Shown here piece after piece: positions 10,770 to 59,857 of a stretch of DNA of 64,000 nucleotides. A model generated the notes under the pieces. That model was not told where the DNA came from, did not search any database, and worked only from the letters and a program-made list of their open reading frames with translations. A program made the position numbers and the translations under genes. The stretch spans positions 1 through 64,000 of the forward strand of contig JBBECS010000016.1 in assembly GCA_040881685.1 (NCBI GenBank), read 5' to 3'. Origin of the DNA: Acidimicrobiia bacterium (GTDB lineage Bacteria; Actinomycetota; Acidimicrobiia; IMCC26256; PALSA-555). How positions within the stretch are numbered: position 1 is the stretch's first letter; each line of letters begins with the position of its first letter.

Positions 10770-10777
10770 GGCGCCGC

Positions 10778-10783: not shown

Positions 10784-10795
10784 CTGCGGTGGGGG

Positions 10796-11233: not shown

Positions 11234-11240
11234 CGGCCGG

Positions 11241-11246
11241 AACCTA
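11241..11246 (-). promoter_or_regulatory. minus-10 box of dut, containing the DUF3501 stop codon
   Basis: TAGGTT on the minus strand, 7 bases before the dut GTG. Its first three bases are the TAG stop codon of the upstream DUF3501 gene. This would let dut be transcribed independently of the peroxide/iron genes. Inferred from the recurring TANNNT-N7-9-start pattern. Confidence 0.55.
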
Positions 11247-13114: not shown

Positions 13115-13131
13115 GGACTCAAACGTCACAA

Positions 13132-33170: not shown

Positions 33171-33177
33171 CCGGCCC

Positions 33178-33183
33178 ACGCTA
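33178..33183 (-). promoter_or_regulatory. minus-10 box of the first AftD-like gene (leaderless)
   Basis: TAGCGT on the minus strand, 7 bases before the ATG, the same hexamer and spacing as at the TetR gene (24063-24068). No ribosome-binding site is visible between it and the start. Confidence 0.55.
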
Positions 33184-33200
33184 GGCCGACCCACCCCCTT

Positions 33201-33242
33201 GGGTGCGTCCCTCACCCGGCTATTCCGTGGTCAGGGACGCAC
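33201..33242. repeat. dispersed palindromic repeat, copy B
   Basis: A 42-base palindrome with perfect 10-base outer arms GTGCGTCCCT/AGGGACGCAC and inner stem around CGGCTATTCCG. It is the inverted, 39-of-42 match of copy A at 13132-13175. It sits in the gap between the AftD-like promoter and a DUF559 pseudogene. Confidence 0.8.
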
Positions 33243-39440: not shown

Positions 39441-40421
39441 GTGGGCGACACGCACAAGGCATTGGTGACTGCGCCGTTTCGCGGGGAGGGGCTCGACACG
39501 TTGCACGGTCTGGCCGACGTGGTGCTCGATCCCTGGATCGACCAGGAGCCGCTGCGGATGTACAAGAGCGAGCAGCTGGCCGAGCGGATCGCGGCCGAGG
39601 GCGCCGACATCCTGATCGTGGAGTCGGACTCGGTGAAGGGCCCGGTGTTCGACCAGCCGCTGATCGCCATCGGCTCGTGCCGCGGTGACCCGAACAACGT
39701 CGACGTCGAGGCCGCGACAGCGAAGGGCATCCCCGTGTTGCGCGCGCCGGGTCGCAACGCCGACGCCGTCGCGGAGATGACGATCGCGCTGCTGCTCGCC
39801 GTGAACCGCGGCATCGTCCAGGGTGACCGCGACGTGCGGGAGAACCAGACGTACCGCAATGGCACGATCCCCTACCAGCGGTACCGCGCCTGGCAGCTCG
39901 CCGGGCGCACGGCCGGCATCGTGGGCCTCGGCGCGGTCGGGCGCGCGACGAAGTGGCGCTTCGAGGGCCTGGGCATGAAGGTGATCGCGTTCGACCCCTA
40001 CAACCCCGATGCCACCCACTCGCTCGACGATCTCCTGGCCGAGGCCGACGTGGTGTCGATGCACGCGATGGTCACGCCCGAGTCCACTGGGATCATTGGT
40101 CCGGATCAATTCGCAAGCATGAAGAAGGGCTGCATCTACGTGAACTCCGCGCGCGCAATCTTGCACGACACCGATGCACTCGTGGCTGCGCTCCAGTCCG
40201 GGCACCTCGGGGGCGCGGGGCTCGACCACTTCATGGGGGAGCACCTCGAGCCCGACCACCCGCTGTGCTCGATGACCAACGTCGTGCTCACACCACACAT
40301 CGGTGGGGCGACGTACGACACCGAAGCCAACCATTCGAAGCTCATCGCCGATGGCTTGGCCACGCTGCTGAGCGGCGGCAAGCCCGACAACATCGTGAAT
40401 CCGGAGGTACTCAGTGGCTGA
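39441..40421 (+). CDS. D-isomer-specific 2-hydroxyacid dehydrogenase
   Basis: 326 residues. The Rossmann motif GIVGLGAVGRATKW, the catalytic Arg in VNSARAI, the Glu in LDHFMGEHLEPDHP and the His in LTPHIGGATYD are visible, as is the N-terminal RGDPNNVDVEAA block. It interconverts a D-2-hydroxyacid and its 2-oxoacid with NAD(H). It overlaps the aldolase gene by 8 bases, so the two probably handle the same small hydroxyacid or sugar-acid. The GTG start follows a TAGGTT box with a 7-base gap. Confidence 0.92.
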   Translation: MGDTHKALVTAPFRGEGLDTLHGLADVVLDPWIDQEPLRMYKSEQLAERIAAEGADILIVESDSVKGPVFDQPLIAIGSCRGDPNNVDVEAATAKGIPVLRAPGRNADAVAEMTIALLLAVNRGIVQGDRDVRENQTYRNGTIPYQRYRAWQLAGRTAGIVGLGAVGRATKWRFEGLGMKVIAFDPYNPDATHSLDDLLAEADVVSMHAMVTPESTGIIGPDQFASMKKGCIYVNSARAILHDTDALVAALQSGHLGGAGLDHFMGEHLEPDHPLCSMTNVVLTPHIGGATYDTEANHSKLIADGLATLLSGGKPDNIVNPEVLSG

Positions 40422-41079
40422 CAAGTCCGCGCTTACCGCGCAAGAGACGAAGGAGCAGCTCCTCTGGGTTGCGAAGGAGATGCTCACGTCAAACCTGGTC
40501 CAGGGCACGGCCGGCAACTGCGCGGCACGCCTGCCCGACGGGAACGCGGTGCTCACGCCGTCGTCCCTCGACTACCTCGACATGACGCTCGACGACCTCG
40601 TGGTGTGCGACCTCGACGGCAATGTGCTCGAAGGCGAACGGAGCCCCACGACCGAGAAGGCGTTGCACCTCAGCGCGCTGCGACTCCACGACGAGATCAA
40701 CGCGACGATGCACTGCCACGCCAAGTTCGCGACGATGTTCGCCCTCACCCGCAAGGCGATCCCCGCGTGCATCGAGGAGTTCGACGTGTTCGTGGGCGGC
40801 GACGTCGAGGTGGCCGACTACCGAACCACCGGCACCGACGAGCTGGCCGAGGAGATCGCCAAGCGCCTCGGCGAGAAGGCCGCGGTGCTCATGGCCAACC
40901 ACGGGCTGTTCGCGGTGGGCAAGAACCCCAAGGACGTGCTGCACATCGCGCACTTGGTCGAGCGCACGGCCGAGATCATTTGGGGCGCGGAGCAGCTCGG
41001 CGAGCTTGTCCCGCTGCCCGACGAGGTCAACAAGCAGTTCGCGAGCTACTACCGCTACGGGCGCACCGGGAAGTTCTAG
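40414..41079 (+). CDS. class II aldolase/adducin family protein
   Basis: 221 residues. The zinc-site histidines are in NATMHCHAKFATM and MANHGLFAVG, and the acidic region is PACIEEFDVF, as in L-fuculose-phosphate and L-ribulose-5-phosphate epimerase/aldolase family members. It cleaves or epimerises a hydroxy-keto compound with a zinc-bound enediolate. The GTG start lies inside the dehydrogenase gene's last codons (8-base overlap). Ends 12 bases from a convergent gene. Substrate unknown. Confidence 0.9.
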   Translation: MADKSALTAQETKEQLLWVAKEMLTSNLVQGTAGNCAARLPDGNAVLTPSSLDYLDMTLDDLVVCDLDGNVLEGERSPTTEKALHLSALRLHDEINATMHCHAKFATMFALTRKAIPACIEEFDVFVGGDVEVADYRTTGTDELAEEIAKRLGEKAAVLMANHGLFAVGKNPKDVLHIAHLVERTAEIIWGAEQLGELVPLPDEVNKQFASYYRYGRTGKF

Positions 41080-41091
41080 GACCCGGGGCCT

Positions 41092-41553
41092 TCACGCCCC
41101 GATCGCGGCCAAGAAGTCGTCGTGGAAGCCTTTGCTTCCCGCGGTCATGGCCTCGAGCTCGTAGTGGTCACCGGTCGATGACACGTCGATCGACACCTGG
41201 CTGGTGATCTTCTTCTGCTCGACCGAGAACTTCACGTCCTTGCGGTCCCACTCCCCGAGCTGCTCCTCGACCTTCCAGTTGTAACCCTTTTGTTTCGTGC
41301 GAAAGGCGTAGACCTTCCCGGCCGTCAACACGATGGCGGCGAGCTTAGTGTTCGTGAACACACCGGTCTTGGCGAGGCCGCCCGCCTTCTCGTTCACACC
41401 CTTGTTCTTGACCATCGCGGCGAGCGGGCTCAGCTTCGCAAGCCCGAACGAGCCCATCGTGCCCGCCGGCTGGAGCAGGCCGACCGCGGTCACCGGCTCC
41501 GTCACATGCGGCTGAAACGTGTCCTTCAGCTGCTGCACCCAATCTCGTCCCAC
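41092..41553 (-). CDS. hypothetical conserved protein
   Basis: 153 residues, not recognised with certainty. An amphipathic N-terminal helix (GRDWVQQLKDTFQPHV), a small Gly/Ala-rich hydrophobic part, then a beta-rich C-terminal part rich in Lys and Val (KVYAFRTKQKGYNWKVEEQL) with a pleckstrin-homology-like or bacterial-PH flavour. Strong GGAGGG 5 bases before the GTG supports expression. It stands downstream of the methyltransferase gene but is separated from it by a hairpin, so may be an independent gene. Confidence 0.6.
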   Translation of the reverse strand: MGRDWVQQLKDTFQPHVTEPVTAVGLLQPAGTMGSFGLAKLSPLAAMVKNKGVNEKAGGLAKTGVFTNTKLAAIVLTAGKVYAFRTKQKGYNWKVEEQLGEWDRKDVKFSVEQKKITSQVSIDVSSTGDHYELEAMTAGSKGFHDDFLAAIGA

Positions 41554-41605
41554 GACACCCTCCTTCTCGAGCGATCCGTCGCCATCATGACGCCCGGCCC
41601 GCCGA

Positions 41606-41625
41606 CCCGCTGACGGCGAAGCGGG
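41606..41625 (-). terminator. hairpin after the O-methyltransferase gene
   Basis: CCCGCT (41606-41611) and AGCGGG (41620-41625) form a 6-bp stem with an 8-base loop right after the methyltransferase stop. It is the only terminator-like structure there. No T-run; weak. Confidence 0.4.
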
Positions 41626-41626
41626 G

Positions 41627-42292
41627 TCAGCGCTTGCGGAGGAGGGTGAGGCCGTCGCCCACGGCGATCATCGAGGTATCGACGCGGTCGTCGGCGGCCA
41701 CCATGTCGTTGAAGGCCCGGATCGCCTTGGTATCGGCATCGGTGACCTTCGGGTCCGCGACGGCGCCCATCCACAGCACGTTGTCGACGAGGATCACACC
41801 GCCGGTGCGCAGCCGGGGGATGAGCTCCTCGTAGTAGCCCGCATACCCCTGCTTGTCGGCATCGATGAACGCCAGGTCGACCACCACGTCCTTCGGTAGC
41901 CCGCGGAGCGTCTCGATGGCAGGCGCGATCACCAGCTCGATCCGCTCAGCGACGCCGGCCCGCGCCCACGCGTCGCGTGCAATCGCGGTCCACTCCTCGC
42001 TGATGTCGCAACAGACCAGGTGACCTTCCGGGGGCAGGCCGTAGGCGATGGCCAGCGACGAGTAGCCGGTGAACGTACCGATCTCGACCGCGTACTTTGC
42101 CCCGATCGCGCGGGTGAGCAGCGTCATGAACGCGCCCTGCTCCGGTGCGATCTGCATCATCGACAGATCGGGAACCTTGGCGCGGGTCTCCTCGATCAGC
42201 CACTGCTGCACCTCGTCGGGCGGCGAGCTGTGCTCGACGATGTACTCGTGGATCGGCGGGGTCAGGAAGAAGGACTTGGGATCAGTCGCCAT
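41627..42292 (-). CDS. SAM-dependent O-methyltransferase (family 3, catechol-type)
   Basis: 221 residues. The S-adenosylmethionine motif AVEIGTFTGYSSLAIA and the metal/substrate block DLAFIDADKQGYAGYYEEL with VILVDNVLWMGAV are characteristic of class-I, cation-dependent caffeoyl-CoA/catechol O-methyltransferase-like proteins. It should methylate a vicinal hydroxyl of a small aromatic or similar substrate. The ATG is 8 bases after TAGGGT, without a ribosome-binding site, indicating a leaderless message. Upstream lies the end of the glycan operon on the same strand. Confidence 0.93.
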   Translation of the reverse strand: MATDPKSFFLTPPIHEYIVEHSSPPDEVQQWLIEETRAKVPDLSMMQIAPEQGAFMTLLTRAIGAKYAVEIGTFTGYSSLAIAYGLPPEGHLVCCDISEEWTAIARDAWARAGVAERIELVIAPAIETLRGLPKDVVVDLAFIDADKQGYAGYYEELIPRLRTGGVILVDNVLWMGAVADPKVTDADTKAIRAFNDMVAADDRVDTSMIAVGDGLTLLRKR

Positions 42293-42300
42293 GGTCCGAA

Positions 42301-42306
42301 ACCCTA
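42301..42306 (-). promoter_or_regulatory. minus-10 box of the O-methyltransferase gene
   Basis: TAGGGT on the minus strand, 8 bases before the ATG, in the short gap downstream of the acyltransferase gene. Follows the TANNNT pattern of other genes here. Confidence 0.5.
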
Positions 42307-42337
42307 GGTCGCGGGCACGAGAACCAGAGTGTCGAAA

Positions 42338-43612
42338 TCAGACCTGCGCCGCGCGCGAGGAGCGTCGCCACGGCGGGTTGTCCTTGAAGCGCAGGATCGG
42401 ACGCTCCAGGAGGTAGTAGCTCACGGTCGCGGTCACGAGGGTGAAGGCGAACGCGATCACGAGGGTGGAGACCACGGGCCCGCCAATCGGCTCGTCGTGC
42501 CCGAGGATGTCCTCACGCACGAACTCGATCCACGCCTTGTGCCACAAGTACACGCCGTACGACACGAGCCCCACGTAGGCGACGGGCGCCCACCTGAGGA
42601 ACCGCCGAACCACTCCCTTGTCCTGATCGCCGAACACCGCAGGAAGGAGGAGGAAGAACGCGGTGAGGCCGTAGAGCGCTTGGCGCATGAAGTACTCGCC
42701 CTGCGTGAGCCCCTCGCCGAGCGAGCGCGGCAACCCCACACGAGTGCTGACCGCCCAGTACGTGAGTGCCGCGAGCGCCCACCAGAGCTCGGGGACGCGA
42801 CCGACCCACTGGACGAGTCGAGGTGCGACCCCACGGTGGGCCACCCACGCGCTGGCGACCGCGAGGCCCATGCCCAGAGCGAACAGGTCGAAGTGGCTCG
42901 GGAGCCAGTACGCGGTGGCCAGCTCGCCGACTTGCCCGCGTGTCGGTTGTACACCGGCCGCGGTCTGCTGGACGGTGGTCTCGTTGACCCACCACGCGAG
43001 ACGCCAGACGACGCACGTGACCACGAGGGCGACGAGTCCGACGATTTCGATATGCACGCGGTGTCGAAGCCAACGAGCTCCGAGCCGGCCGATCCCCCAC
43101 GCGTACAACGGGAGGAACGCATAGAAGCTGAGCTCGGTGGCGAGGCTCCAAGCCTGGTCGATACCGCTGAAGAACCGGGTCGGGTCGTAGATCTGCGCGA
43201 ACCCGAAGTACGCGAGGAAGTCACCGGGCGAGCTGAGCGTGCCGTCGCGAAACCCGAAGACAAGGTAGATGCCGATCAGCGCGGCCCAGTAGCCGGGAAC
43301 GATCCTGAGGATGCGTCGCCACCAGAACCGATCCGCCGACATCGGTCGCTCTCCCGAGAGGTGCCGAGCGACGAACGGGCGGTAGAGCAAGAAACCCGAA
43401 ATGAGGAAGAAGACTGAGACACCAGAGTCGCCGTGCGCGAAGTACGCACCGAAATGACCGTTGACGCCGTACCCGGTGGAGAACCCGACGTGATGGAAGA
43501 CCACTGCCGTCGCGGCGATCGCCCGCAGTCCGTCGAAGCACGGGAAATGCGAGTGCTGGCTCTCACCTGGCTGCGCCGCGTCTGCCGGGTGGTCGGCAAC
43601 CTCGGCGGGCAT
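42338..43612 (-). CDS. acyltransferase 3 family membrane protein
   Basis: 424 residues, about 10 transmembrane helices. The N-terminal FPCFDGLRAIAATAVVFHHVG contains the expected first-helix His; only its core LRAIAATAVVFHHVG is needed. Others are FFLISGFLLYRPF, RRILRIVPGYWAAL and the terminal SYYLLERPILRF. These enzymes O-acetylate or acylate envelope glycans and lipids. It ends an operon behind two GT-C transferases (9-base gap) and has a paralog at 62057-63295. Confidence 0.93.
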   Translation of the reverse strand: MPAEVADHPADAAQPGESQHSHFPCFDGLRAIAATAVVFHHVGFSTGYGVNGHFGAYFAHGDSGVSVFFLISGFLLYRPFVARHLSGERPMSADRFWWRRILRIVPGYWAALIGIYLVFGFRDGTLSSPGDFLAYFGFAQIYDPTRFFSGIDQAWSLATELSFYAFLPLYAWGIGRLGARWLRHRVHIEIVGLVALVVTCVVWRLAWWVNETTVQQTAAGVQPTRGQVGELATAYWLPSHFDLFALGMGLAVASAWVAHRGVAPRLVQWVGRVPELWWALAALTYWAVSTRVGLPRSLGEGLTQGEYFMRQALYGLTAFFLLLPAVFGDQDKGVVRRFLRWAPVAYVGLVSYGVYLWHKAWIEFVREDILGHDEPIGGPVVSTLVIAFAFTLVTATVSYYLLERPILRFKDNPPWRRSSRAAQV

Positions 43613-43621
43613 CAGCGCATC

Positions 43622-44758
43622 CTACGGAACGTACAACCGGAAGAACGCGAGCGCGGCGTACGTGACCAGCCCGCCGGCAGCGAGGGCATTCACCGATCGA
43701 TCCACGTCGGCGCGCGTCGTGACCAGCGCCACCGCGATCGCGAACACGAACGTGCTGAATGCATAGCGCTCGAACGAGCTGATGTTGGAGGCCGTCATGC
43801 CCAGGACCAGCGTGACCGCGCCATACGCGGTGTACGAGGCCGGAAGGCGCCGGGCGAGCACCACGAGCAACCCGAGGAACAACGCCAGCCACAGGAGGTG
43901 CAACCCCGCGCCGAAACGATCGCCGTCGAGCAGGTCGCCCACCGAGTTGACTACGTGCGTGATGGGGTCGACGGCGCCGCCGCGCAGGTCGTGGCGACTC
44001 TGCACACTGAACGGCAGCAACGGGTCGTCGTACTCGATGCCGACCCAGGCGAGATAGATCGCGGTTCCGATCGCGGGTGACGCAACTGCTGCGAGTCGCG
44101 TTCCGCGTTCGCGCCTGCCGCACTCGCGCCAACCCCGCGCCGCTTCAATCGCCGCGGGAACCATCAGGACCAAGCCGACCGGGCGTGTGAGCCCGGCCGC
44201 GACGCCGAGCGCCGCAGCGGGGCCCCATCGGCCCGAGCGAAGCGCGAGGAACATGCCGACGGCGGCCACCATCATCAGCGGCTCCGCATACGACAACACG
44301 AACGACAACGCGGCTGGGAACACCGCGACGAACCATGCGGCTCGCACGGCCACCCGCGCGTCTCCGATCTCTCGGAGCACGAGCCTGTGCACGAGCGCAC
44401 CGAGCACGAGCGCGGCAACGCTCACGATCACGACGAGGGCGACGCCGACGTGGTCGCCGAAGACGGCACCGAGCCAACGACCGAGCAACGGAAACAGCGG
44501 GAAGAACCGGAGTCCTTCCTTCGGGTACGCGGCATATCCGTGCTCGGCGAGGTCGCGGTACCAGCTCCCGTCGTAGATGAAGAGGCCGAGGTCCGGCGCA
44601 CCGTCATGGCGCCGAGGGACGAGCCGATCGTCGAAGAACCGGCTGAGCCAGAGCGAACCGAGCACGAGCACCCGGGCCACCACCCAAGGCAGCGCCGCGG
44701 CGCGCAGGTCACGCCGGACGAAGTCGCTGTCCTTCACCCGCGCCCACGTGGTGCTCAC
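43622..44758 (-). CDS. GT-C mannosyltransferase-like protein (PIG-V-related)
   Basis: 378 residues with about 9-10 membrane helices. The N-terminal segment GLFIYDGSWYRDLAEHGYA and RFFPLFPLLGRWL resemble the first loop and second helix of the bacterial PIG-V-like mannosyltransferases, and LTRPVGLVLMVPA is another conserved block. It should transfer a sugar from a polyprenyl-phosphate donor to an extracytoplasmic acceptor. The GTG start overlaps the next transferase's stop (GTGA). The acceptor is unknown. Confidence 0.85.
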   Translation of the reverse strand: MSTTWARVKDSDFVRRDLRAAALPWVVARVLVLGSLWLSRFFDDRLVPRRHDGAPDLGLFIYDGSWYRDLAEHGYAAYPKEGLRFFPLFPLLGRWLGAVFGDHVGVALVVIVSVAALVLGALVHRLVLREIGDARVAVRAAWFVAVFPAALSFVLSYAEPLMMVAAVGMFLALRSGRWGPAAALGVAAGLTRPVGLVLMVPAAIEAARGWRECGRRERGTRLAAVASPAIGTAIYLAWVGIEYDDPLLPFSVQSRHDLRGGAVDPITHVVNSVGDLLDGDRFGAGLHLLWLALFLGLLVVLARRLPASYTAYGAVTLVLGMTASNISSFERYAFSTFVFAIAVALVTTRADVDRSVNALAAGGLVTYAALAFFRLYVP

Positions 44759-46269
44759 TGTGCGGGGTACTCAGTGAGCGCGCGGACCTCCAACACCTCA
44801 TCATCGGGGAAGACGTGGATGGTCCCCTCGCGGGCACGACTGAAGGCGCCGCCGATGGCCGTGCACTCTCGTTCCAAGTGGTTCAGCCCTGGCGACCAGA
44901 CGAACCAGACCGTCTGATCCCCCGCGCGGTCCAAGACCTCGGCAACGAACTCGTCGGGATCGGCGCGCCGCACCCGCTCGAGGTAGTCGCTCCAGTTCAC
45001 GAACTCCGGAGGAGCAACATCGGGGAACGTGACCTGCTCGAGACCCGGCACGCCGCGCAGCAGCCGACTGACGTCGGGTCCGAGCTGATCGGAGCAGTAC
45101 GCGACCACATCGCCGGGTTGCGACTCGCGCTCGATGACGTCCGCCGCGAGTCCGGCTTGTGTCCGTTCGTACACGACGTTTCGCACACCACCCGCGATGC
45201 CCAGCACGGCGATCAGTGCCAAGACGGCGATCCGGACGCGTTGGTCCAGGAACGCCGTGACGCCGAACGCGGCGACCAGCGCCACGAGCGGGAAGATAAT
45301 CGCCGCGTACCGCGGCGCGAACGTCGTGTCGGTGAGGTACGAGATGACGGAGCCGAGCAGCAGCACGCCGACCGCACTGGCCGCTTCCCATCGCACGGCG
45401 GGCCGCGTCCGGAGGTCGAGCTCGATGCGACGCGAGTCCAGCCCTCGACCGAACACGGCCAGCAACGGGAGCACGAGCAGGAGCAAGGCGAGCATGTACG
45501 CCTCGCCGTCTTTGTTGCTGCCGGCGTAGGCGATCAGCGTGCTCGGCACGACGACCCACGGGAACTGCGGGTCTCCCCACGGCGTACCCGTGCTCCCGAT
45601 CTGGTCCAGGAAGACGGGGAGCCACGCCGCGAAGGCAACCGATCCCACGGCCACGGCACCAAACACACGCCACGCACGACGCCGTTCGGCCGGGTCGCCG
45701 ACACGAAGCGCGCGCCAGAGCAACGCCGCACCGACGATCGCGACCAGGTAGAGGTCCCAATACTGGGTGAGCACGAGCCCGGCGGTGATCGCAGCGACGA
45801 GGGCGAGACGGGGCAACGTTGGCGCTTCGAGCGCGCGACGCAAGGCCAGATAGCCCCCAACCACGAAGAGCATCACCAGCGCGTACATCCGCGCCTCGGT
45901 GGCGTATCGGAACGCGTACGGCGACAACGCGATGACGAGGGCTGCGATCCACGCCACCGTCCGGCCACCGAGGCGATGCCCCGCGAACCAGGCGAGTGGC
46001 AGCGTGGCCAGCGACAAGATCCCTGAGAGCGCGCGCACGGCCACATCGCCGTCGCCGAAGCCCTCGACCCAGAAATGCAGCAGGAAGTAGTAAAGGGGCG
46101 GGTGGCCGTCGTGGCGCAGGGCGTCGGAGATCTCGCCGAGCGGGAGGCTCGCGATGTTGACCGACAGTGCTTCGTCGAACCAGAGGTCCGACCGAGTGAC
46201 GAAGCGGAGTACGACCGACGCCACGACGGCCGCCCCGAGCGCGAGGGCGAGCAACGGTTGTCGGCGCAT
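44755..46269 (-). CDS. GT-C glycosyltransferase, PMT/GT39-ArnT-like
   Basis: 504 residues, about 11-12 membrane helices. The first extracytoplasmic loop motif SDLWFDEALSVN carries the acidic residues that mark the PMT/GT39 superfamily active site, followed by RHDGHPPLYYFLLHFW and YATEARMYALVMLF. It probably uses a polyprenyl-phosphate sugar. Gene order: VOC, F420 oxidoreductase, this, PIG-V-like, acyltransferase, with overlaps of a few bases. Candidate role is transfer of one sugar of an envelope glycan or glycolipid. Confidence 0.88.
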   Translation of the reverse strand: MRRQPLLALALGAAVVASVVLRFVTRSDLWFDEALSVNIASLPLGEISDALRHDGHPPLYYFLLHFWVEGFGDGDVAVRALSGILSLATLPLAWFAGHRLGGRTVAWIAALVIALSPYAFRYATEARMYALVMLFVVGGYLALRRALEAPTLPRLALVAAITAGLVLTQYWDLYLVAIVGAALLWRALRVGDPAERRRAWRVFGAVAVGSVAFAAWLPVFLDQIGSTGTPWGDPQFPWVVVPSTLIAYAGSNKDGEAYMLALLLLVLPLLAVFGRGLDSRRIELDLRTRPAVRWEAASAVGVLLLGSVISYLTDTTFAPRYAAIIFPLVALVAAFGVTAFLDQRVRIAVLALIAVLGIAGGVRNVVYERTQAGLAADVIERESQPGDVVAYCSDQLGPDVSRLLRGVPGLEQVTFPDVAPPEFVNWSDYLERVRRADPDEFVAEVLDRAGDQTVWFVWSPGLNHLERECTAIGGAFSRAREGTIHVFPDDEVLEVRALTEYPAQ

Positions 46270-46271
46270 CG

Positions 46272-47249
46272 CTAGGACGTGACCCGAGGAGCGACTTCGG
46301 TCGCGAACCGCTCCAGGCTCTCGCTCTCCGGGAAGTCACGGAACCAGAGCACGAACTCGCGACAGCCCGCGTCGACGTAACCCTGCACCTTCTCCGCGAC
46401 CTGCTCGACCGTCCCGACGAAGTTGTCGCGGACGTACACCTCCGGATCGTCTCGACCCCACAGACTGCCGCCGCCGGGCGCTTCGAGCCACGACGCCAGG
46501 TCGCGTTCGGAGTCGAAGAGCCGGCAGTCGGGGCCGTGCGTGCGAACGATCGAGTCGAAGTCGCGCCCCGCCCGCTCGCAGTGCTCGCTCAGCACCTTGG
46601 ACTTGTGCACGAACTGGTCGAGCCCGACCTGCCAGTTGGTCTTGTCCGCATGCTGGGCGGCGATGCGCAGGGTGACGCGCTCTCCCCCGCCACCCACCCA
46701 GATCTCCGGAAGCTGCTGGAGCGGCTTCGGGTCGCAATAGGCGCCGTCGAAATGGAGATGGTCGCCGTTGAAGGTGACCGTCTCTTCGGTCCAGAGGCGC
46801 TTGATGCAGACGATGGTCTCTTCGAGCACCGCGAGGCGCTGCCCGGCCGACAGGAACGGGTAGCCGTACGCCGCGTACTCGCGCTCGTACCATCCCGCGC
46901 CGAGGCCGAGGATCAACCGCCCACCTGACACCACGTCGACGCCGGCCGCCTCCTTGGCCAGCAACCCCGCGTTCCGATATGACGAGCACGTCACCATCTG
47001 GCCCAAGCGGATGCGCTCCGTGTGCTGGGCCAGGGCAGCGAGCGTCGTGAACGCTTCGAAGACGTGGGTCGGCTCGCGGCGTGGCACCGTCTCGACGTGG
47101 TCATACACCCAGAGGTGGTCGTAACCCACGCGTTCGGCGATCTTCGACAACTCGACCGTGCGCGCCCACGACTCCGCGGCGCCCCACCCCGAGTACTCGA
47201 GCTTCCAACCCTGTGGCGCGAACGCGCCATAGGCGATCGTTGACGTCAA
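46272..47249 (-). CDS. F420-dependent LLM-class oxidoreductase
   Basis: 325 residues of the luciferase fold: VGYDHLWVYDHVETVPR, GGRLILGLGAGWYEREY, and PEIWVGGGGERVTLRIAA. It belongs to a different F420 subfamily from the pair at 8873-10769. The TTG start overlaps the VOC gene (TTGA). Placement between a VOC protein and membrane glycosyltransferases is unusual: it may modify a lipid or sugar precursor, such as a polyprenol, before glycosylation. This is inference from the operon. Confidence 0.9.
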   Translation of the reverse strand: MTSTIAYGAFAPQGWKLEYSGWGAAESWARTVELSKIAERVGYDHLWVYDHVETVPRREPTHVFEAFTTLAALAQHTERIRLGQMVTCSSYRNAGLLAKEAAGVDVVSGGRLILGLGAGWYEREYAAYGYPFLSAGQRLAVLEETIVCIKRLWTEETVTFNGDHLHFDGAYCDPKPLQQLPEIWVGGGGERVTLRIAAQHADKTNWQVGLDQFVHKSKVLSEHCERAGRDFDSIVRTHGPDCRLFDSERDLASWLEAPGGGSLWGRDDPEVYVRDNFVGTVEQVAEKVQGYVDAGCREFVLWFRDFPESESLERFATEVAPRVTS

Positions 47250-47713
47250 GCGGTGGTCTCCGCGGGGTAGTCGTCAGTCTTGAAGTCCCACCACTGGATC
47301 TCGACCATCATCGGGAGCAGGTAGCGGACGTAGATGCTCGTGATCGCCAGCATCTCGTAGTCGTCGACCTTCTTGTCGATGATCTCGACGCGGTCGTCAC
47401 GCTTCTGATACCGCTTCGCTCGATCGAGCATCGCGTCGAGCTCTTCCTCGGTCTCGACCGACAGCCCGTAGTGGTCGAGTCGGGCGCACGTCATCGGCGG
47501 GTCGTCGGCGATGAGGAACACGAACTGCTCGTACGTGTAACAGGACAGCACGAGGCGGTACTTGTCTTGCGTGAGCGTCGGGAGCTCTTTCCACCCAAAC
47601 ACCTCGTCGTAGAAGTCGAGGATGAGCTTCCGGTGCTCCTCGTCGAGCAGATCGGCCGGCAAGCTCATGGCCACATGGTTGAAGCGCGGGCTCCGCGGCT
47701 TGGCCAGTGTCAT
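47246..47713 (-). CDS. VOC/glyoxalase superfamily protein
   Basis: 155 residues. The beta-alpha-beta-beta-beta pattern is seen in FNHVAMSLPADLL, YEQFVFLIADDPPMTCARLDHYGL (His in RLDHYGL) and VEIQWWDF, fitting the two metal ligand positions of the VOC fold. Members act as isomerases, dioxygenases or binding proteins. A strong AGGAGGGTGAG precedes the ATG, and the stop is shared with the F420 oxidoreductase start. Metal and substrate unknown. Confidence 0.85.
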   Translation of the reverse strand: MTLAKPRSPRFNHVAMSLPADLLDEEHRKLILDFYDEVFGWKELPTLTQDKYRLVLSCYTYEQFVFLIADDPPMTCARLDHYGLSVETEEELDAMLDRAKRYQKRDDRVEIIDKKVDDYEMLAITSIYVRYLLPMMVEIQWWDFKTDDYPAETTA

Positions 47714-47735
47714 CTCACCCTCCTACTTCCTGCTC

Positions 47736-48788
47736 CTACTTGTCTCGCCTGGGCACGATCATCACCTTGGCGGCGAGCTCGCCGTCGTGGAGTCCTGCAA
47801 TCGCGCCGAGGATGTTGTCGAGCGGCACGTCGTCGGCTTCGATGAGCGTGTCACTCGGGAACGACCGGTTGGCGAGGAGCTCGAGCGCCCGGTCGAAGCC
47901 GTCGGCGTCGTAGATGAACGCGCCGGTGATCAGCAGCTCGTTGAGAAGGATGCGGTTGTTGTCGAAGCGCGGTCGGTGCATCCCGGCCCCGACGAGTACC
48001 AAAGTGCCACCGCGCTTCAGCTGTCCGAGCGCAGACTCCATGGCGCCCGCATGGCCCGAGCACTCGAGTGCCACGTCGAACGGCTCGGCGACGACGTCAC
48101 CCGGAGACGGCGGCGTGGCGAGCTCGTCGGGAACGACAACGGTGGCCCCGAGTCGTTCCGCGAGCGCTCGGCGCTTCGGATGAGGCTCGCTCACCACGAT
48201 GTCGGTGACGCCGCGTGCGCGCGCCGCGGCAACGCTCAGCGTGCCGATCGGTCCCGCGCCGGTAACGAGCACGCGCTGTCCGGCTTGCACGCCACCGCGC
48301 GTGAGCCCGTGCAGCGCGACGGCGAGCGGTTCGGCGAGTGCGGCCACACGGAGCGACATCCCTTCGGGTACGCGTTTGATCCCGGCCTCGCTCGCGACGA
48401 CGTACTCGGCGAAGGCGCCGTCGTTGTGGCCGCTTCCGCCCGGCGAGTTGCGAGCCGCGCACAGCGACGGACGACCGGCGAGACATTGCTCGCACTTGCC
48501 GCACTTCGGTGTGGGGCCACCGACGGCCTTGTCGCCCACGCTCCACTGCGTGACCGCGTCGCCGACTGCCACCACGCGCCCTGACCACTCGTGACCCTCG
48601 ACCGAACCCGGTTGCCCCCACCCTTCCACCACGAAATGCAGATCGCTGCCGCAGATCCCGCAGTGGCTGACCTCGAGCAGCACGTCGTGCGGCCCGATCT
48701 CGGGCACCGGCCGCTCTTCCACGTCCATCGCGCCCTTGCCGCGGTACACCGCCGCGCGCATGGAGGTGGGTGGCTTGACGGTCGTCAT
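47736..48788 (-). CDS. zinc-dependent alcohol dehydrogenase (MDR superfamily)
   Basis: 350 residues. Catalytic zinc ligands are in HCGICGSDLH and EGHEWSG; the structural zinc site is CGKCEQCLAGRPSLC; the NAD-binding motif is VTGAGPIGTLS. This places it with threonine/sorbitol dehydrogenase-like MDR enzymes that oxidise secondary alcohols or polyols. The ATG is 9 bases after TATGCT. It heads an apparent six-gene operon through VOC, F420 oxidoreductase, two glycosyltransferases and an acyltransferase (largest gap 22 bases). Confidence 0.92.
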   Translation of the reverse strand: MTTVKPPTSMRAAVYRGKGAMDVEERPVPEIGPHDVLLEVSHCGICGSDLHFVVEGWGQPGSVEGHEWSGRVVAVGDAVTQWSVGDKAVGGPTPKCGKCEQCLAGRPSLCAARNSPGGSGHNDGAFAEYVVASEAGIKRVPEGMSLRVAALAEPLAVALHGLTRGGVQAGQRVLVTGAGPIGTLSVAAARARGVTDIVVSEPHPKRRALAERLGATVVVPDELATPPSPGDVVAEPFDVALECSGHAGAMESALGQLKRGGTLVLVGAGMHRPRFDNNRILLNELLITGAFIYDADGFDRALELLANRSFPSDTLIEADDVPLDNILGAIAGLHDGELAAKVMIVPRRDK

Positions 48789-48797
48789 GCGCCGCAG

Positions 48798-48803
48798 AGC
48801 ATA
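48798..48803 (-). promoter_or_regulatory. minus-10 box of the alcohol dehydrogenase operon
   Basis: TATGCT on the minus strand, 9 bases before the ATG, in the 27-base gap to the IolB-like gene. It is the best match in the window to the TANNNT pattern with an A/T-rich end. No ribosome-binding site follows. Confidence 0.5.
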
Positions 48804-48815
48804 GAGCGGCGCACC

Positions 48816-49517
48816 TCAGGCATACCGGGGGTCGAGCCTGGTGTCGACGGTGTCGGCGTCACCGGCCAGTGCCCACAAGTAGTACATCGTGAAGCCGGGC
48901 GCGGCGACGACCGGGTGCCATCCCGTGGTGATTCGCTCGATGCTCCCGTCGCGGACGATCACCGGGCGATCCTCGCCATCGTCGTACCCGACGTGCACGC
49001 CGAACCCATGCTCCGGATCGAACCGGTAGAGGTACGCCTCTTCGTGCTCGTGGCGGTGCGGTGGCCAGCTCGACCATCCGCCCGGTGGGTTCAGCGTCTC
49101 ACCGACGATCAACGGTCCTTCCGACACGTACGTGCGCACGCGCCGCGCCGTCGTGCCCTCGCCCCGCGCCTCGTCGGGAACCGTGGCGGGATCGATCGTG
49201 CGCGACTCGAGCCCTTGGTCCGTGGCGCGCCAGACGACCGTGGCCGACAGGTCGCCGGCGAGCGAGAAGCTGCTCTCGGGACCGACCACCGCCGACCAGC
49301 CAGGGCCTTCGAAGACGTCACCGCGGGCGCGCACATCGTCGGCGTGATCGCCGGTGACCAGCTGGCCTGCCCCGCCCTCGATCAGCACCCACGCGATCGC
49401 GCCCGACGTGCGGCCCTGCATCGGGCCACGGGTCCGGGTCACGCCGAGGCGAGCGCCCGGACCGGGTTCGAGCAACGCGTCAGCGTGGTCGGCCTCGAGC
49501 GTGAGCGACGGTGCCAC
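48816..49517 (-). CDS. IolB-like 5-deoxy-glucuronate isomerase
   Basis: 233 residues, cupin fold. The block LNPPGGWSSWPPHRHEHEEA holds the metal-binding His residues of IolB/KduI, followed by YLYRFDPEHGFGVHVGYDD and GWHPVVAAPGFTMYYLWALA. IolB converts 5-deoxy-glucuronate to 2-deoxy-5-keto-gluconate in myo-inositol catabolism. No other iol gene is near, so the role may be different. The GTG start is 9 bases after TACGCT on the minus strand. It is the first gene of that strand here, with its 5' side facing the nuclease gene. Confidence 0.85.
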   Translation of the reverse strand: MAPSLTLEADHADALLEPGPGARLGVTRTRGPMQGRTSGAIAWVLIEGGAGQLVTGDHADDVRARGDVFEGPGWSAVVGPESSFSLAGDLSATVVWRATDQGLESRTIDPATVPDEARGEGTTARRVRTYVSEGPLIVGETLNPPGGWSSWPPHRHEHEEAYLYRFDPEHGFGVHVGYDDGEDRPVIVRDGSIERITTGWHPVVAAPGFTMYYLWALAGDADTVDTRLDPRYA

Positions 49518-49526
49518 GGCGCGGGA

Positions 49527-49532
49527 AGCGTA
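49527..49532 (-). promoter_or_regulatory. minus-10 box of the IolB-like gene
   Basis: TACGCT on the minus strand, 9 bases before the GTG start. Follows the leaderless pattern. Confidence 0.45.
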
Positions 49533-49597
49533 CCGGTCCGCCCTCCGCTGCGATCCTCTCGGGAATTAGGGTTCTGCCCACAGGGACCGGGGGAAGC

Positions 49598-50599
49598 ATG
49601 CGCAAGACCGTTGTCGTCGCAACCATCGTCGCCGTCGTAGCCATCGGGCTGCTCGCCGGCCCGGCCGGGGCCCGTCGGGCTGCAGGATCGGGTGGGTCGT
49701 CCGATGCCAGCGTTCGGATCGTGAACTTCAACGTCTTGCACGGGCTCTTCTGCGCCCCCGAGACCAAGGCGTGTCAGGCGTCGGACCGGATGGATCTCCT
49801 GGCGCAGCAACTCGAGGAGTCGGAGTGCCCCGAGGTCGTGGGTATGCAAGAGGTGAACATCACCATCGGCAAGGAGCTCGACCGGATTCGCAAGACGGTC
49901 TGTGACGGCAAGTACAAGATCGTCTTCGGCGGTCAGCCCAAGAGCAGCGACACCGAAAGGATCTTCACGACCCTGAAGGTCAAGAGCAAGAAGGTGCTCA
50001 AGCTCTTCGGGGGCTTCCGGACGGCGTCACGCATCGTGCTGTCCTCCCCCATCGGGACGATCGTCGTGGTGACCACCCACCAGGATGGGGACCCGGACGA
50101 GCCGTCGCTCACATGCCGAGTCTGCAAGCCGCCGTGCCAGACCGATCGTGGGGTGTACGACTGTCAGACCGACGCCGCGATCGCTCTCGCGAACTCGGCG
50201 GGTGGAGCCAACGCGATCCGCGTGCTCATGGGTGACTTCAATGTCGACGCCACATCCGCGCGCTACGCGTACATCATCGAGGATGGCTTCGTCGACACCC
50301 ACTTCGAGGCCGGCAACGCCGAATGCGTCCCCGAGACCGGGGTCAACTGCACGAGTGGTCGCGATGACCAGAGCCTCGCCGCGCTCCAGGACCCGACCAC
50401 GAGGGAGTCACACCGGATCGACTTCATCTTCGTGAAGTCGACGCCGAAGTGCGACGTCGTGGTGGACACCCCGGATGACGGCGACGGTGACGGGCTCGGT
50501 ACCGGGCTGTTCTTCCCCGAGCCGACGGTGGACGGTCCGGGTGGCCTGGTGTGGGTGTCGGACCACACCGGCACGACCGCAGATCTGTCCTGCGGGTAG
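49598..50599 (+). CDS. secreted endonuclease/exonuclease/phosphatase (EEP) family protein
   Basis: 333 residues. A signal peptide (MRKTVVVATIVAVVAIGLLA, cleavage near AGAR) is followed by an EEP fold: VRIVNFNVLHG, PEVVGMQEVN (metal Glu), VLMGDFNVD (catalytic Asp/Asn) and WVSDHTGT (final Asp-His). Many cysteines (CRVCKPPC, DCQ) suggest disulphides, so it acts outside the cell. Substrates of this family range from DNA to phospholipids and phosphoinositides. The ATG has GGGGGAAGC before it. The closest partner is the D-aminoacylase-type gene 21 bases downstream. Confidence 0.9.
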   Translation: MRKTVVVATIVAVVAIGLLAGPAGARRAAGSGGSSDASVRIVNFNVLHGLFCAPETKACQASDRMDLLAQQLEESECPEVVGMQEVNITIGKELDRIRKTVCDGKYKIVFGGQPKSSDTERIFTTLKVKSKKVLKLFGGFRTASRIVLSSPIGTIVVVTTHQDGDPDEPSLTCRVCKPPCQTDRGVYDCQTDAAIALANSAGGANAIRVLMGDFNVDATSARYAYIIEDGFVDTHFEAGNAECVPETGVNCTSGRDDQSLAALQDPTTRESHRIDFIFVKSTPKCDVVVDTPDDGDGDGLGTGLFFPEPTVDGPGGLVWVSDHTGTTADLSCG

Positions 50600-50620
50600 A
50601 GCGGGCAGAAGGAGCCAAAC

Positions 50621-52276
50621 ATGCCTGACCTCGTGATTCGTGGCGGCACCGTGATCGACGGCACCGGCGCGCCTGCGCAGCGCGCCGACGTCGCGATCGA
50701 CGGCGACACCATCTCGGAGATCGGACACGGGCTCTCAGGAAAAAGAGAGATCGACGCCGGCGGCCATGTCGTCGCGCCGGGATTCATCGACATTCACACC
50801 CACTATGACGCGCAGGTGTTCTGGGATCCTGCGCTGACGCCGTCGTCGTGGCACGGCGTCACCAGCGTCGTGGCCGGCAACTGCGGCTTCTCGATCGCGC
50901 CGTGTCGCCCAGAGCACCGCGGGCTGATCGGTCGCACGCTCATGCACGTCGAGGACATGAGCCTGCCGACACTCGAAGCCGGCATCCCGTGGGACTTCGA
51001 GACGTTTCCCGAGTACCTCGATTCGGTGGAGCAGCACGGCTCGGTCCTCAACTTCACCGCGTACGTCGGACACACCGCCATCCGCCTCTACGTGATGGGC
51101 GACGACGGCTACGAACGCGATGCGACCGACGACGAGCTCGCGCGCATGGCCGACGTCGTACGCGAGGCGGTCGCCGCGGGCGCGGCGGGTGTGGCATCGA
51201 GCAGCGCGCAGACGCACAACGGCGACGGTGGCCGTCCGGTCCCGTCGCGGCTGGCCGGCTTCGCCGAGTACGAGGCGATCTACTCCCCGATGCGCGAGCT
51301 CGGTCGAGGTGTCGGTGCGGTCACCCCCGGCGAGCGCTTCACGCACCCCGAGGCGTACGCGCTGCAGCGGCGCGTCGGTCGACCGTTCACGTGGACCGCC
51401 CTGCTCACGATCAAGGGCTCGTCGTTCGCGTCGGACATGGCCGAGCTGAACACGAGGGAACGGGCTGCCGGCGCGGATGTGTGGCCTCAGATCACCTGTC
51501 GTCCGCTGACCTTCCAGATGACCATGGCCGACCCGTTCACGTTCAACATGGCGCCCGCGTTCAAGGAGCTGATGGACCGACCGGTCGACGAGCGCCTGGC
51601 GGCCTATCGAGACGCCGACTGGGTGGCGCGCGCACAGGCCGACCTCACCACGGGGCGCGTCTTCCGCCCGAGCTGGGATGCGCTGACGATCGCGGAGTCG
51701 CGTGACCCCGAGCTCGTGGGCCGCAGTGTGGCGTCACTCGCAGCCGAGCGGGAGATGGAACCGCTCGAGGCGATGGTCACTCTCGCCGCCGAGGAAGACC
51801 TCACCACGCGCTTCCGCAGCGTGCTCGCCAACAACGACGAGGACATGATCGAGCAGCTCCTCACGACCGACGGGATGCTGATCGGCTTGTCCGACGCGGG
51901 CGCCCACGTGAGCCAGCTGTGCGACGCGTGCCTGCCTACCGACCTCCTCGGCAACTGGGTTCGCGAGCGTGAGGTGCTGCCACTGGAACGTGCGGTGCAC
52001 AAGCTCACCGGCGAGCCCGCCGGAGTGTTCGGCTTCGCCGACCGCGGCATCCTCCGTGAAGGCATGAAGGCCGACCTGGCCGTCTTCGATCCCGACACGG
52101 TCGCTCCGGGCGGGTTGCACCGAGTCCGCGACTTCCCCGCCGACGGAGAGCGGCTCGTCGCCGACGAGCCGCAAGGCATGCAGCATGTGCTCGTGAACGG
52201 GACGCCGATACGCGAGAACGGAGCACCCGTCAAGGAAACCGTCGCCGCGCGCCCAGGTCGCGTGCTCAACCGCTAG
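50621..52276 (+). CDS. N-acyl-D-amino-acid deacylase-type amidohydrolase
   Basis: 551 residues. The metal-site motif GFIDIHTHYDAQ (HTHYDAQ at 59-65), NCGFS (87-91) and the late aspartate in LSDAGAHVSQL place it in the D-aminoacylase/dihydroorotase amidohydrolase group. Family enzymes remove acyl groups from N-acyl-D-amino acids or open cyclic amides; many paralogs act on other substrates. AGAAGGAG precedes the ATG. It is the second gene after the secreted EEP protein but itself has no signal peptide. Substrate unproven. Confidence 0.9.
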   Translation: MPDLVIRGGTVIDGTGAPAQRADVAIDGDTISEIGHGLSGKREIDAGGHVVAPGFIDIHTHYDAQVFWDPALTPSSWHGVTSVVAGNCGFSIAPCRPEHRGLIGRTLMHVEDMSLPTLEAGIPWDFETFPEYLDSVEQHGSVLNFTAYVGHTAIRLYVMGDDGYERDATDDELARMADVVREAVAAGAAGVASSSAQTHNGDGGRPVPSRLAGFAEYEAIYSPMRELGRGVGAVTPGERFTHPEAYALQRRVGRPFTWTALLTIKGSSFASDMAELNTRERAAGADVWPQITCRPLTFQMTMADPFTFNMAPAFKELMDRPVDERLAAYRDADWVARAQADLTTGRVFRPSWDALTIAESRDPELVGRSVASLAAEREMEPLEAMVTLAAEEDLTTRFRSVLANNDEDMIEQLLTTDGMLIGLSDAGAHVSQLCDACLPTDLLGNWVREREVLPLERAVHKLTGEPAGVFGFADRGILREGMKADLAVFDPDTVAPGGLHRVRDFPADGERLVADEPQGMQHVLVNGTPIRENGAPVKETVAARPGRVLNR

Positions 52277-52291: not shown

Positions 52292-52993
52292 TCAGTCGGC
52301 GACGGCGGTAATGCCGATGCAGACGTTCAAGTCGACGAGTGGCACGCGCAACGGGAAGAACCGACGGTGCACGATCCGGAACCGCTCGCGGAGCAGGTCG
52401 GTGATCTCTTTGGGCGAGTTGATGTGCTCCCGACGCACGAAGATCTCGTAGGGCAGCTTGTAACGCTTCTCGAACTCCCGTTGTGCGGTGAACCGCCTGC
52501 CGATCCCGTAGACGAAGCCGGGGTCGCACGGGATCACCACGCTGAGCCGGCCATCGGCGCGCAGCAGGCGCCGCAGCTCGTTGAGCGCCGTCGGGAGGTC
52601 AGGCAGGTGCTCCAGCACGTGCACCGCGACCGCTCGATCGAACGTCCCCGCGTCGAACGGCAGCTGCTGCTGGCAGTCCTCGACGATCGTCGTCACCGAC
52701 GGGAACCGCGCTTGGATGCCGGCTGCCATCTCTGGGCGCATCTCGACGCACGTGTAGTCCTGGCGGGACAGGTCCTCGTACGCGAGCTGCTCGCCCAGGC
52801 CCGCGCCGATCTCGATCGTGCGGACCCGCCCCCCCAAGCCGGCCATCGACCGGAGCGGGTAACGATGGTTGAACCGCTCGATCATCTGGTAGCTCCCGGG
52901 CAGGTCCTCGTGCCATCGGCGGATCGCATCGTCGATCGTTGCTTGGTGCTCGGGATCGATCGGTGGCAGCTCCTTCGGCCACTTCGTGGTCAT
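52292..52993 (-). CDS. class I SAM-dependent methyltransferase
   Basis: 233 residues. Motif I is RTIEIGAGLGEQLAYED, the acidic strand-2 end is VEMRPEM, post-I is IVEDCQQQLPFD, and motif IV is AVAVHVLEHLPD. The lipid- or sugar-methyltransferase type is common at the end of glycan clusters. Its start overlaps the DUF2304 gene stop (ATGA), the last of five coupled genes. It probably methylates a sugar of the envelope glycan, inferred from context. Confidence 0.9.
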   Translation of the reverse strand: MTTKWPKELPPIDPEHQATIDDAIRRWHEDLPGSYQMIERFNHRYPLRSMAGLGGRVRTIEIGAGLGEQLAYEDLSRQDYTCVEMRPEMAAGIQARFPSVTTIVEDCQQQLPFDAGTFDRAVAVHVLEHLPDLPTALNELRRLLRADGRLSVVIPCDPGFVYGIGRRFTAQREFEKRYKLPYEIFVRREHINSPKEITDLLRERFRIVHRRFFPLRVPLVDLNVCIGITAVAD

Positions 52994-53376
52994 GGCTGCG
53001 GTTCCTTGTCGGTGAGCACGGGCGGGGGCGCCGCGGGTTCGGACCCCTGCTCCTTCTCGAGACGGCGTACACGCTCCTCGGTCAGCGCCAACGTCTCCGA
53101 CACGGTTCGCAGCATCTCAGTGAGCCCCGATGCAGTGATCGACAGCTGCACCGAGATGAGCAGCAAGAGGAAGAGCGAGACCCCCAGCAGGAACTCGACC
53201 GGGCGCAAGCCGACCGAATCAGCGAGCGGCTCCGCCAATCCAGTGAGTGCGCCTGACGCTCCGATCGAGACGGCGACGAAGAACCACCCAAGCGCGTACC
53301 GGAGTGTGAGGAGCTGAAGTCGCGCCAGCACAACGATCATCAGCGCCAAGAGCAGACCGAGGAATCCGAGCAACAA
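52990..53376 (-). CDS. DUF2304-type membrane protein
   Basis: 128 residues. Three hydrophobic segments (LLGFLGLLLALMIVVLARL, YALGWFFVAVSIGASGALTG and EFLLGVSLFLLLLISVQLSI) precede a C-terminal coiled-coil tail (LRTVSETLALTEERVRRLEKE). DUF2304 genes commonly follow a dolichol-phosphate-mannose synthase-like GT2, as here, and probably help make or flip the polyprenyl-phosphate sugar; this is inferred from gene association. The TTG start follows directly after the GT2 TAA stop. Confidence 0.82.
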   Translation of the reverse strand: MLLGFLGLLLALMIVVLARLQLLTLRYALGWFFVAVSIGASGALTGLAEPLADSVGLRPVEFLLGVSLFLLLLISVQLSITASGLTEMLRTVSETLALTEERVRRLEKEQGSEPAAPPPVLTDKEPQP

Positions 53377-54114
53377 TTAGGAGCGCTCCAAGGGTGTCGC
53401 CGGACGATAGCGCGTGCCGATTCTCAAAACGACGACGACGAGCGCCCGTACGAGGAATGCGATTGAGGCGGCACCTCCCGCTGAACGCAGGCCACCTTGG
53501 CGCGCACGAATCGCGATGGGGGTCGATACGACTGTGTATCCAGCCCGCGCGCTCGCGACGAGTACCTCGAACGTGTCACCGAGATACTGCGTCGGGTAGT
53601 TACGAGCGAACTCGTTCAAGAGCGGGACCGACACGGCGCGGAAGCCTGACGTCGCGTCTCCGATCGGTCGGCCCGCGGCGCGACTCGCCACCCGCGCCAG
53701 GATGCGCATGACGATCCGGCGAGCGCGCGAGACGTCCATTCGCTGTTCGGCTTCGAATCGGTTGCCGACGACAAGGTGCGCGCGTTCGTCGTTCATCGCC
53801 TCTAAGAGGAGCTGGATGTCCGCTGGGTCGTGCTGCCCGTCCGCATCACATTGGACGGCGACCCGGTACCCGTGCTCCACGGCGTACCGGAAACCACACC
53901 GAAGTGCGGCGCCGACACCGAGGTTCACAGGGAGTCGAACGACGGTCGCCCCTGCTTCCTCAGCGACCTCTCTCGTCCCATCGGTCGAGCCATCGTCGAC
54001 GAGCACGACAGACACGCCTTGCGCACGCACCGCATGAACGACGGCACCCGCGGTCTCCGCCTCGTTGAGCGCCGGGATGATCACCACGACGTCGTTCAGT
54101 TCCATCGTGGCCAT
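53377..54114 (-). CDS. GT2 glycosyltransferase (polyprenyl-phosphate mannose synthase-like)
   Basis: 245 residues. ALNEAET, VDDGSTDGT, and the DxD-type CDADGQHDP are typical of DPM1-like GT2 enzymes, with a C-terminal hydrophobic stretch that may bind the membrane. It would transfer a sugar from a nucleotide donor to polyprenyl phosphate, making the lipid-linked donor for the GT-C enzymes around it. Start at the ATG 54114; ATG 54105 or a TTG at 54150 are possible. It lies between the AftD-like gene and DUF2304. Confidence 0.92.
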   Translation of the reverse strand: MATMELNDVVVIIPALNEAETAGAVVHAVRAQGVSVVLVDDGSTDGTREVAEEAGATVVRLPVNLGVGAALRCGFRYAVEHGYRVAVQCDADGQHDPADIQLLLEAMNDERAHLVVGNRFEAEQRMDVSRARRIVMRILARVASRAAGRPIGDATSGFRAVSVPLLNEFARNYPTQYLGDTFEVLVASARAGYTVVSTPIAIRARQGGLRSAGGAASIAFLVRALVVVVLRIGTRYRPATPLERS

Positions 54115-54136
54115 CTCATTGTCTGTAGTAGCGCGC

Positions 54137-59733: not shown

Positions 59734-59857
59734 GTCGGCGTTCACGGGTGGGGCGGTACACGGCAACCCGGTCATGCGTAGGGACCCCACGCTCCCGGAG
59801 GCGCCACTCTACCCGACGAGTTGCGATCGAAGCCGCGCCCGCGTGAGCGCTGGTTTG

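Follow-up and report, generated by a model that had tools for sequence, protein, structure and literature searches.

A run of redox and envelope glycosyltransferase genes in Acidimicrobiia may consist of two separable modules joined once

Background

In Corynebacterium glutamicum, the AftD gene (cg3161) is reported (PMC7775120) to lie near the genes for the mycolylacetyltransferase TmaT (cg3163), a putative glycosyltransferase (cg3166) and the methyltransferase MtrP (cg3168). A locus of similar content, in which an AftD-type GT-C domain stands amid GT4, GT2, methyltransferase and acyltransferase genes, is found in a 64,000-nt stretch (the window) of an Acidimicrobiia bacterium (GenBank assembly GCA_040881685.1, contig JBBECS010000016.1, positions 1 to 64,000). 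Unlike the Corynebacteriales loci, it belongs to an Acidimicrobiia genome and contains an embedded redox cassette, and the likeness is one of gene content. The window harbors a run of six genes for a zinc-type dehydrogenase (ADH), a VOC-fold protein, an F420-type luciferase-like oxidoreductase (LLM), two GT-C glycosyltransferases (PMT and a PIG-V-like protein) and a membrane acyltransferase. The original prediction for this DNA held that the redox enzymes modify a polyprenol or a sugar for the transferases. Our comparison leads us, with somewhat more confidence than doubt, to read the run instead as two modules, namely, a catabolic redox cassette that became attached, in a single event, to an AftD-type envelope locus and has mostly been kept there.

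In the literature that we searched, we found no paper on F420-dependent enzymes in an operon with polyprenol glycosyl- or mannosyltransferases, none on a VOC-LLM-ADH F420 gene cluster, and none treating both arabinofuranosyltransferases and Acidimicrobiia; a single paper turned up on arabinogalactan and cell-wall glycosyltransferases in Acidimicrobiales, and it appears to be off topic.

Results

Conservation of the gene order

Among 58 genomes of one order of Acidimicrobiia (probably GTDB IMCC26256, with the family PALSA-555), mostly assembled from metagenomes, 40 harbor an ortholog of the VOC-fold protein (E ≤ 1e-38), and 39 of these were examined; G052, whose VOC gene is at a contig end, was the one omitted. 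Gaps and gene starts at these loci come from an automatic script, and G009 was counted from two contigs. A transferase is the next searched gene after the redox cassette at 32 of the 39 loci (PMT at 29 and the PIG-V-like gene at three), two loci end at a contig edge (G028 and G039), and at the remaining five the cassette has no transferase gene next to it (G057, G054, G056, G025 and G017, the stretch of the last ending 567 nt after LLM). LLM is missing from five of the 32 linked loci, and PMT was not found in G011 (80% complete) and G009 (64% complete), where the LLM-PIG-V order is kept. The acyltransferase gene directly follows the PIG-V-like gene in just one of the 22 loci where the latter is whole and followed by at least 1 kb, namely, the window's own, and we therefore rejected it as a member of the block. 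Thus, the conserved order that had been envisaged for six genes holds for five, ADH-VOC-LLM-PMT-PIG-V. A divergent amidohydrolase gene is present at 30 of the 39 loci, and a KduI/IolB-type gene at eight.

Overlaps of 4 nt are common within ADH-VOC-LLM and within PMT-PIG-V. Of the 25 loci where PMT follows LLM, 22 have a gap of 26-634 nt between the two, leaving room for a separate promoter there, and the other three, the window included, a gap of ≤2 nt.

Occurrence of each module without the other

PMT and the PIG-V-like gene stand side by side in eight of the 18 order genomes that lack a VOC ortholog, and in four of the 18 (G019, G021, G022 and G042) the amidohydrolase gene and PMT are immediate neighbors, none of the cassette genes intervening; G019, rated 99% complete, consists of one contig. 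We also sampled 296 genomes of the class, drawn from a larger group, of which 238 lie outside the order. Of these 238 genomes, 46 have a homolog of PMT (E ≤ 1e-40), and 18 of the 46 loci were fetched: the PIG-V-like gene is within 2 kb in 13 of them, while ADH, VOC and LLM were found in none of the 18. Conversely, eight of the 238 genomes harbor a VOC ortholog. For the cassette itself we compiled 81 named loci, i.e., the window and the best 80 of 89 relatives (34 in the order and 46 outside it), with genes from our own codon-score script, clusters from blastp single linkage, and assignment by match to the 58-genome set, so that an order member absent from that set would count as outside. ADH adjoins VOC in 73 of the 81 loci, including 41 of the 46 outside the order, and clustering together with tblastn detected PMT, PIG-V or amidohydrolase genes in none of these 46 (ten of the stretches being shorter than 8 kb).

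Since each module is found without the other, a common chemical task for the two is conceivable, yet it is not the likelier reading, and the proposal that the redox enzymes modify a polyprenol or sugar for the transferases is disfavored. In its sugar-directed form, ADH would oxidize and LLM reduce a sugar or cyclitol, the VOC and IolB-like proteins would isomerize it, and PMT and the PIG-V-like protein would transfer this rare sugar onto an envelope glycan. We consider this improbable in spite of the retention of the five-gene order in most genomes examined, the co-occurrence of the modules, albeit unlinked, in all eight VOC-bearing genomes outside the order, and the sugar-directed look of the IolB-like protein and ADH. 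Besides the transferase pairs without redox genes and the redox genes without transferases, it is opposed by the two genomes in which PMT was not found next to the kept LLM-PIG-V order, by the linked loci that miss LLM, and by the importer and aldolase partners that some cassettes have outside the order (see below). Quite doubtful, likewise, is the more specific claim that ADH-VOC-LLM makes a keto, epimerized or reduced sugar or cyclitol which PMT and the PIG-V-like protein place on an arabinan-type envelope glycan; if true, it would represent an F420-linked sugar-tailoring route in Acidimicrobiia.

Origin of the join

A tree of ADH and VOC, built by a quick method from 70 of the 81 loci (those lacking a usable ADH next to VOC were dropped; three branches, including L227, are long), places 30 of the 31 in-order rows in one clade with SH-aLRT support of 96. 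The exception, L189 (from G025), is unlinked to transferases, and three loci, L165, L182 and L185, fall inside the in-order clade. Taking tree and synteny together, the simplest account is one ancestral join that was then passed on mostly vertically, the linkage being lost later in L165, L182 and L185. In one locus, L084 (from G041), VOC and PMT look intact, but ADH and the PIG-V-like gene are broken across several reading frames, possibly due to decay or an assembly error.

A single clade is also what pure operon inertia would leave behind, that is, an accidental join of unrelated modules, the cassette not being catabolic, that was kept because breaking the promoter arrangement is costly. The amidohydrolase, which has no obvious glycan role and yet stays alongside in most of the genomes, fits this explanation as well. 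We nevertheless hold it to be unlikely, given the long retention of the join (in the 32 linked genomes) and the partners of the cassette elsewhere, which indicate catabolism.

Partners of the cassette in other lineages

In six of the 46 loci outside the order (L178, L204-L207 and L227), a branched-chain amino acid-type ABC transporter ATPase gene overlaps the ADH gene by 1-4 nt, and permease and binding-protein genes are also present in four of the six (L178, L204, L205 and L227). As L204-L207 group closely on the tree, the importer link represents about three lineages. A 2-hydroxyacid dehydrogenase (HADH) or class II aldolase (FUCA) gene lies in the stretch of nine of the 46 loci, and in L168 and L170 the genes HADH, FUCA, ADH and VOC lie close together in the same orientation. 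In three of the seven outside loci that have an HADH (L168, L170 and L227), the protein is 65-71% identical to the one in the window; within the order, the HADH/aldolase pair is near the cassette in three of 35 loci, the window among them. Other neighbors of the cassette encode ThuA, RraA, cupin, RidA and PEP-mutase-like proteins. The importer and aldolase partners outside the order point to catabolism. Four of the named records (L151, L179, L205 and L207) are titled Bifidobacterium breve yet carry an Acidimicrobiia-type locus, and these titles look wrong.

Such partners would also suit a cassette that salvages a sugar or cyclitol from envelope turnover, so that both modules handle the same sugar at opposite ends, and the co-occurrence of the modules outside the order agrees with this idea too. 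However, no glycan hydrolase was seen among the annotated neighbors, and we regard salvage as very improbable.

Proteins of the redox cassette

The families named in the original prediction are borne out, with ADH, LLM, PMT and the acyltransferase recognized by Pfam or NCBIfam models, and the VOC and GT-C assignments by predicted fold. The solved relatives of ADH include ketose reductase and threonine, sorbitol and idonate dehydrogenases. The KduI/IolB-type protein encoded next to it matches the Pfam family KduI with 136.3 bits (cut-off 23.9) and an IolB-like solved structure with an E-value of 1.5e-11. A KduI/IolB family protein encoded beside a related zinc dehydrogenase recalls the enzymes IolB and IolM of inositol catabolism, but both proteins of the window fall below the equivalog cut-offs, with 105.4 versus 205 bits for IolB (5-deoxy-glucuronate isomerase) and 176 versus 450 bits for IolM (scyllo-inosose 3-dehydrogenase). 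We therefore rejected both identifications, and with them membership in inositol catabolism.

LLM scores above the cut-off of the F420 model TIGR03560 (251.9 versus 231.4 bits). Two matches to the CofD family are present in its genome, but this family also matches ten of 14 control genomes including E. coli and thus gives no proof of F420 synthesis. The same genome matches the LLM protein in 31 places at E ≤ 0.001, one of them the LLM gene itself, indicating that F420/FMN-type oxidoreductases are numerous there.

For the VOC-fold protein, no Pfam match was found at 1e-3, and a search up to E = 10 returned Glyoxalase at 0.073, under the family cut-off; a sequence search for solved relatives gave nothing convincing (best E 0.099). 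Its AlphaFold model (pLDDT 93.7) has the paired beta-alpha-beta-beta-beta fold, and a structural comparison gave at least 50 matches, those listed having Z of 9.9-12.3 and rmsd of 2.2-5.0 and being mostly of glyoxalase, fosfomycin-resistance or dioxygenase type. Residues H13, H81 and E138 are invariant in an alignment of 30 sequences, and in a larger one of 61 sequences H81 and E138 remain invariant and H13 is present in at least 90%; judging from this conservation, the three residues are candidates for a metal triad. The protein resembles the single-domain VOC metalloenzymes L-DOPA dioxygenase, FosX and glyoxalase I in its fold and in two conserved histidines and one conserved glutamate, which we take to be the ligand positions in those enzymes, whereas it differs from them in sequence, with 7-22% identity among the matches listed.

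Transferases and their AftD-type context

PMT matches Pfam PMT_2 with 37.4 bits (cut-off 26.1), and its early acidic motif D32-E33 is invariant in an alignment of 19 sequences; searching its profile against solved structures returned only a receptor at 0.057. The PIG-V-like protein has no Pfam match at 1e-3, no PIG-V model was found at E up to 10, and its score against the NCBIfam model AZOBR_p60025 is 35.3 bits against a cut-off of 150. Since it reaches no family cut-off in Pfam or NCBIfam, we use the name PIG-V-like only. In an alignment of 18 sequences, D63 and R84-F85-F86-P87 are invariant. Foldseek searches with its AlphaFold model (pLDDT 88.7) gave eight matches at E ≤ 1e-3, all of them oligosaccharyltransferase subunits or complexes, followed by Pmt4, ALG9, AftA, Emb, ArnT and PimE, so that a GT-C fold is supported by a modest similarity (query TM 0.36-0.52). 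Both proteins resemble the mycobacterial mannosyltransferase MT1671 (Rv1635c) and GT-C enzymes such as PimE in their GT-C architecture with an early acidic motif, but the score against the MT1671 model is far below its cut-off (21.4 versus 900 bits). For the acyltransferase, a sequence search found no solved relative at 0.01.

AftD is present in 48 of the 58 order genomes, and among the 14 control genomes only Corynebacterium glutamicum has a match. In the window, GT2, GT4, DUF2304 and methyltransferase genes adjoin the AftD-type gene at 54137-58555, and several further genomes (e.g., L130-L132, L238 and L241) have AftD or GT4 genes in the vicinity of PMT-PIG-V.

Genes and spacing in the window

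The coordinates and spacing of the six minus-strand genes in the original prediction, with gaps of at most 22 nt and several overlaps, agree with the open reading frames, the successive gaps from ADH to the acyltransferase being 22, -4, 2, -4 and 9 nt. The run extends beyond these six genes, since a KduI/IolB-type gene lies 27 nt upstream of ADH and an O-methyltransferase gene 45 nt downstream of the acyltransferase (Table 1). By our own gene calls, two other tight co-directional runs exist in the window, one of 12 genes at 1175-13114 and one of five genes at 52292-59745 (gaps ≤60 nt); tight runs being common, the spacing by itself is not unusual. Two genes of the 12-gene run were scanned, and they encode an Fe-S/CCG protein (11822-13129) and an LLM oxidoreductase (9825-10865).

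Judged by spacing, the run is likely co-transcribed in this genome. A consensus scan of positions 41000-50700, which says little in a GC-rich actinobacterium, found no sigma-70-like promoter site where 0.5 were expected and six terminator-like sites where 3.6 were expected. Separate promoters before the glycosyltransferases would have spoken against a six-gene operon; most loci have room for one, and in the window the gap is 2 nt.

A gene for a hydantoinase B/oxoprolinase (cluster c24; at 4280-6058 in L171) adjoins the D-aminoacylase-type amidohydrolase gene in several order genomes.

Table 1. Features of the window discussed in the text
Feature	Coordinates	Strand	Remarks
KduI/IolB-type isomerase-like protein	48816-49517	-	First gene of the run; Pfam KduI
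ADH, Zn-type medium-chain dehydrogenase	47736-48788	-	Sorbitol/threonine dehydrogenase-like; Pfam ADH_N and ADH_zinc_N
VOC-fold protein	47246-47713	-	Fold by AlphaFold prediction; H13, H81 and E138, candidate metal triad
LLM, F420-type luciferase-like oxidoreductase	46272-47249	-	Pfam Bac_luciferase; TIGR03560
PMT, PMT_2 GT-C glycosyltransferase	44755-46269	-	Pfam PMT_2; invariant D32-E33
PIG-V-like GT-C glycosyltransferase	43622-44758	-	Invariant D63 and R84-F85-F86-P87; AlphaFold GT-C matches
Membrane acyltransferase	42338-43612	-	Pfam Acyl_transf_3, 92.9 bits; local addition, outside the conserved block
O-methyltransferase	41627-42292	-	End of the tight run; Pfam Methyltransf_3, 195.6 bits
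Hypothetical protein	41092-41553		Gap of 73 nt to the O-methyltransferase gene
Class II aldolase (FUCA)	40414-41079	+	Convergent with the run; other lineages have relatives close to ADH-VOC
2-hydroxyacid dehydrogenase (HADH)	39441-40421	+	Convergent with the run; other lineages have relatives close to ADH-VOC
D-aminoacylase-type amidohydrolase	50621-52276	+	Divergent neighbor; Amidohydro_3, D-aminoacylase relatives
Methyltransferase	52292-52993		After the DUF2304 gene
DUF2304 gene	52990-53376		After the GT2 gene
GT2 glycosyltransferase	53377-54150	-	Candidate polyprenyl-phosphate sugar synthase; putative donor role
AftD-type GT-C arabinofuranosyltransferase homolog	54137-58555	-	PF11847, 295.6 bits (cut-off 26)
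Second AftD-type homolog	28950-33215	-	PF11847, 307 bits (cut-off 26); opposite side of the six-gene run

Discussion

Under the two-module reading, PMT and the PIG-V-like protein are extracytoplasmic GT-C transferases of the AftD-type envelope glycan locus that probably use polyprenyl-phosphate sugars (we infer both donor and acceptor), and the GT2 protein encoded beside the AftD-type gene could make such a donor. ADH-VOC-LLM, in some genomes together with the KduI/IolB-type protein, would be a soluble catabolic cassette, in which ADH may oxidize a hydroxyl group on some small imported molecule, carbohydrate-like or otherwise hydroxylated, the putative metal-binding VOC enzyme may isomerize or open the resulting ketone, and LLM may add an optional F420-linked redox step. 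This cassette would have been inserted once, in an ancestor of much of the order, between the divergent amidohydrolase gene and the glycosyltransferase pair.

Several observations weigh against this explanation. The join is kept in 32 of the 39 genomes while the identity of PMT to that of the window drops to about 41%, and LLM and PMT are separated by just 2 nt in G010 as well as in the window. Outside the order, all eight VOC-bearing genomes also harbor a PMT homolog, on a different contig, as compared with 38 of the 230 genomes without VOC (Fisher p about 1e-6, uncorrected for kinship, completeness and thresholds); within the order, PMT is present in 35 of the 40 genomes with VOC and in 11 of the 18 without (p 0.035, likewise uncorrected for all three). 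The catabolic role of the cassette meets its own difficulties, as the HADH in the other four of the seven outside loci is only 32-35% identical to the window's and some contexts outside the order are not sugar-like: AMP-binding genes of acyl-CoA synthetase type occur in 13 of the 46 outside loci, and acyl-CoA dehydrogenases or a P450, identified by eye, are found at some loci.

Conclusions

These results suggest that an operon of suggestive content can be a long-lived join of separable modules, so that gene order alone does not make one pathway. They also bring to notice an ADH-VOC(-LLM) cassette whose VOC protein falls below the Pfam cut-offs and which in other lineages is coupled to ABC importer genes, and they indicate that AftD-type envelope loci are common in an order of Acidimicrobiia that is known here mostly from metagenome-assembled genomes.

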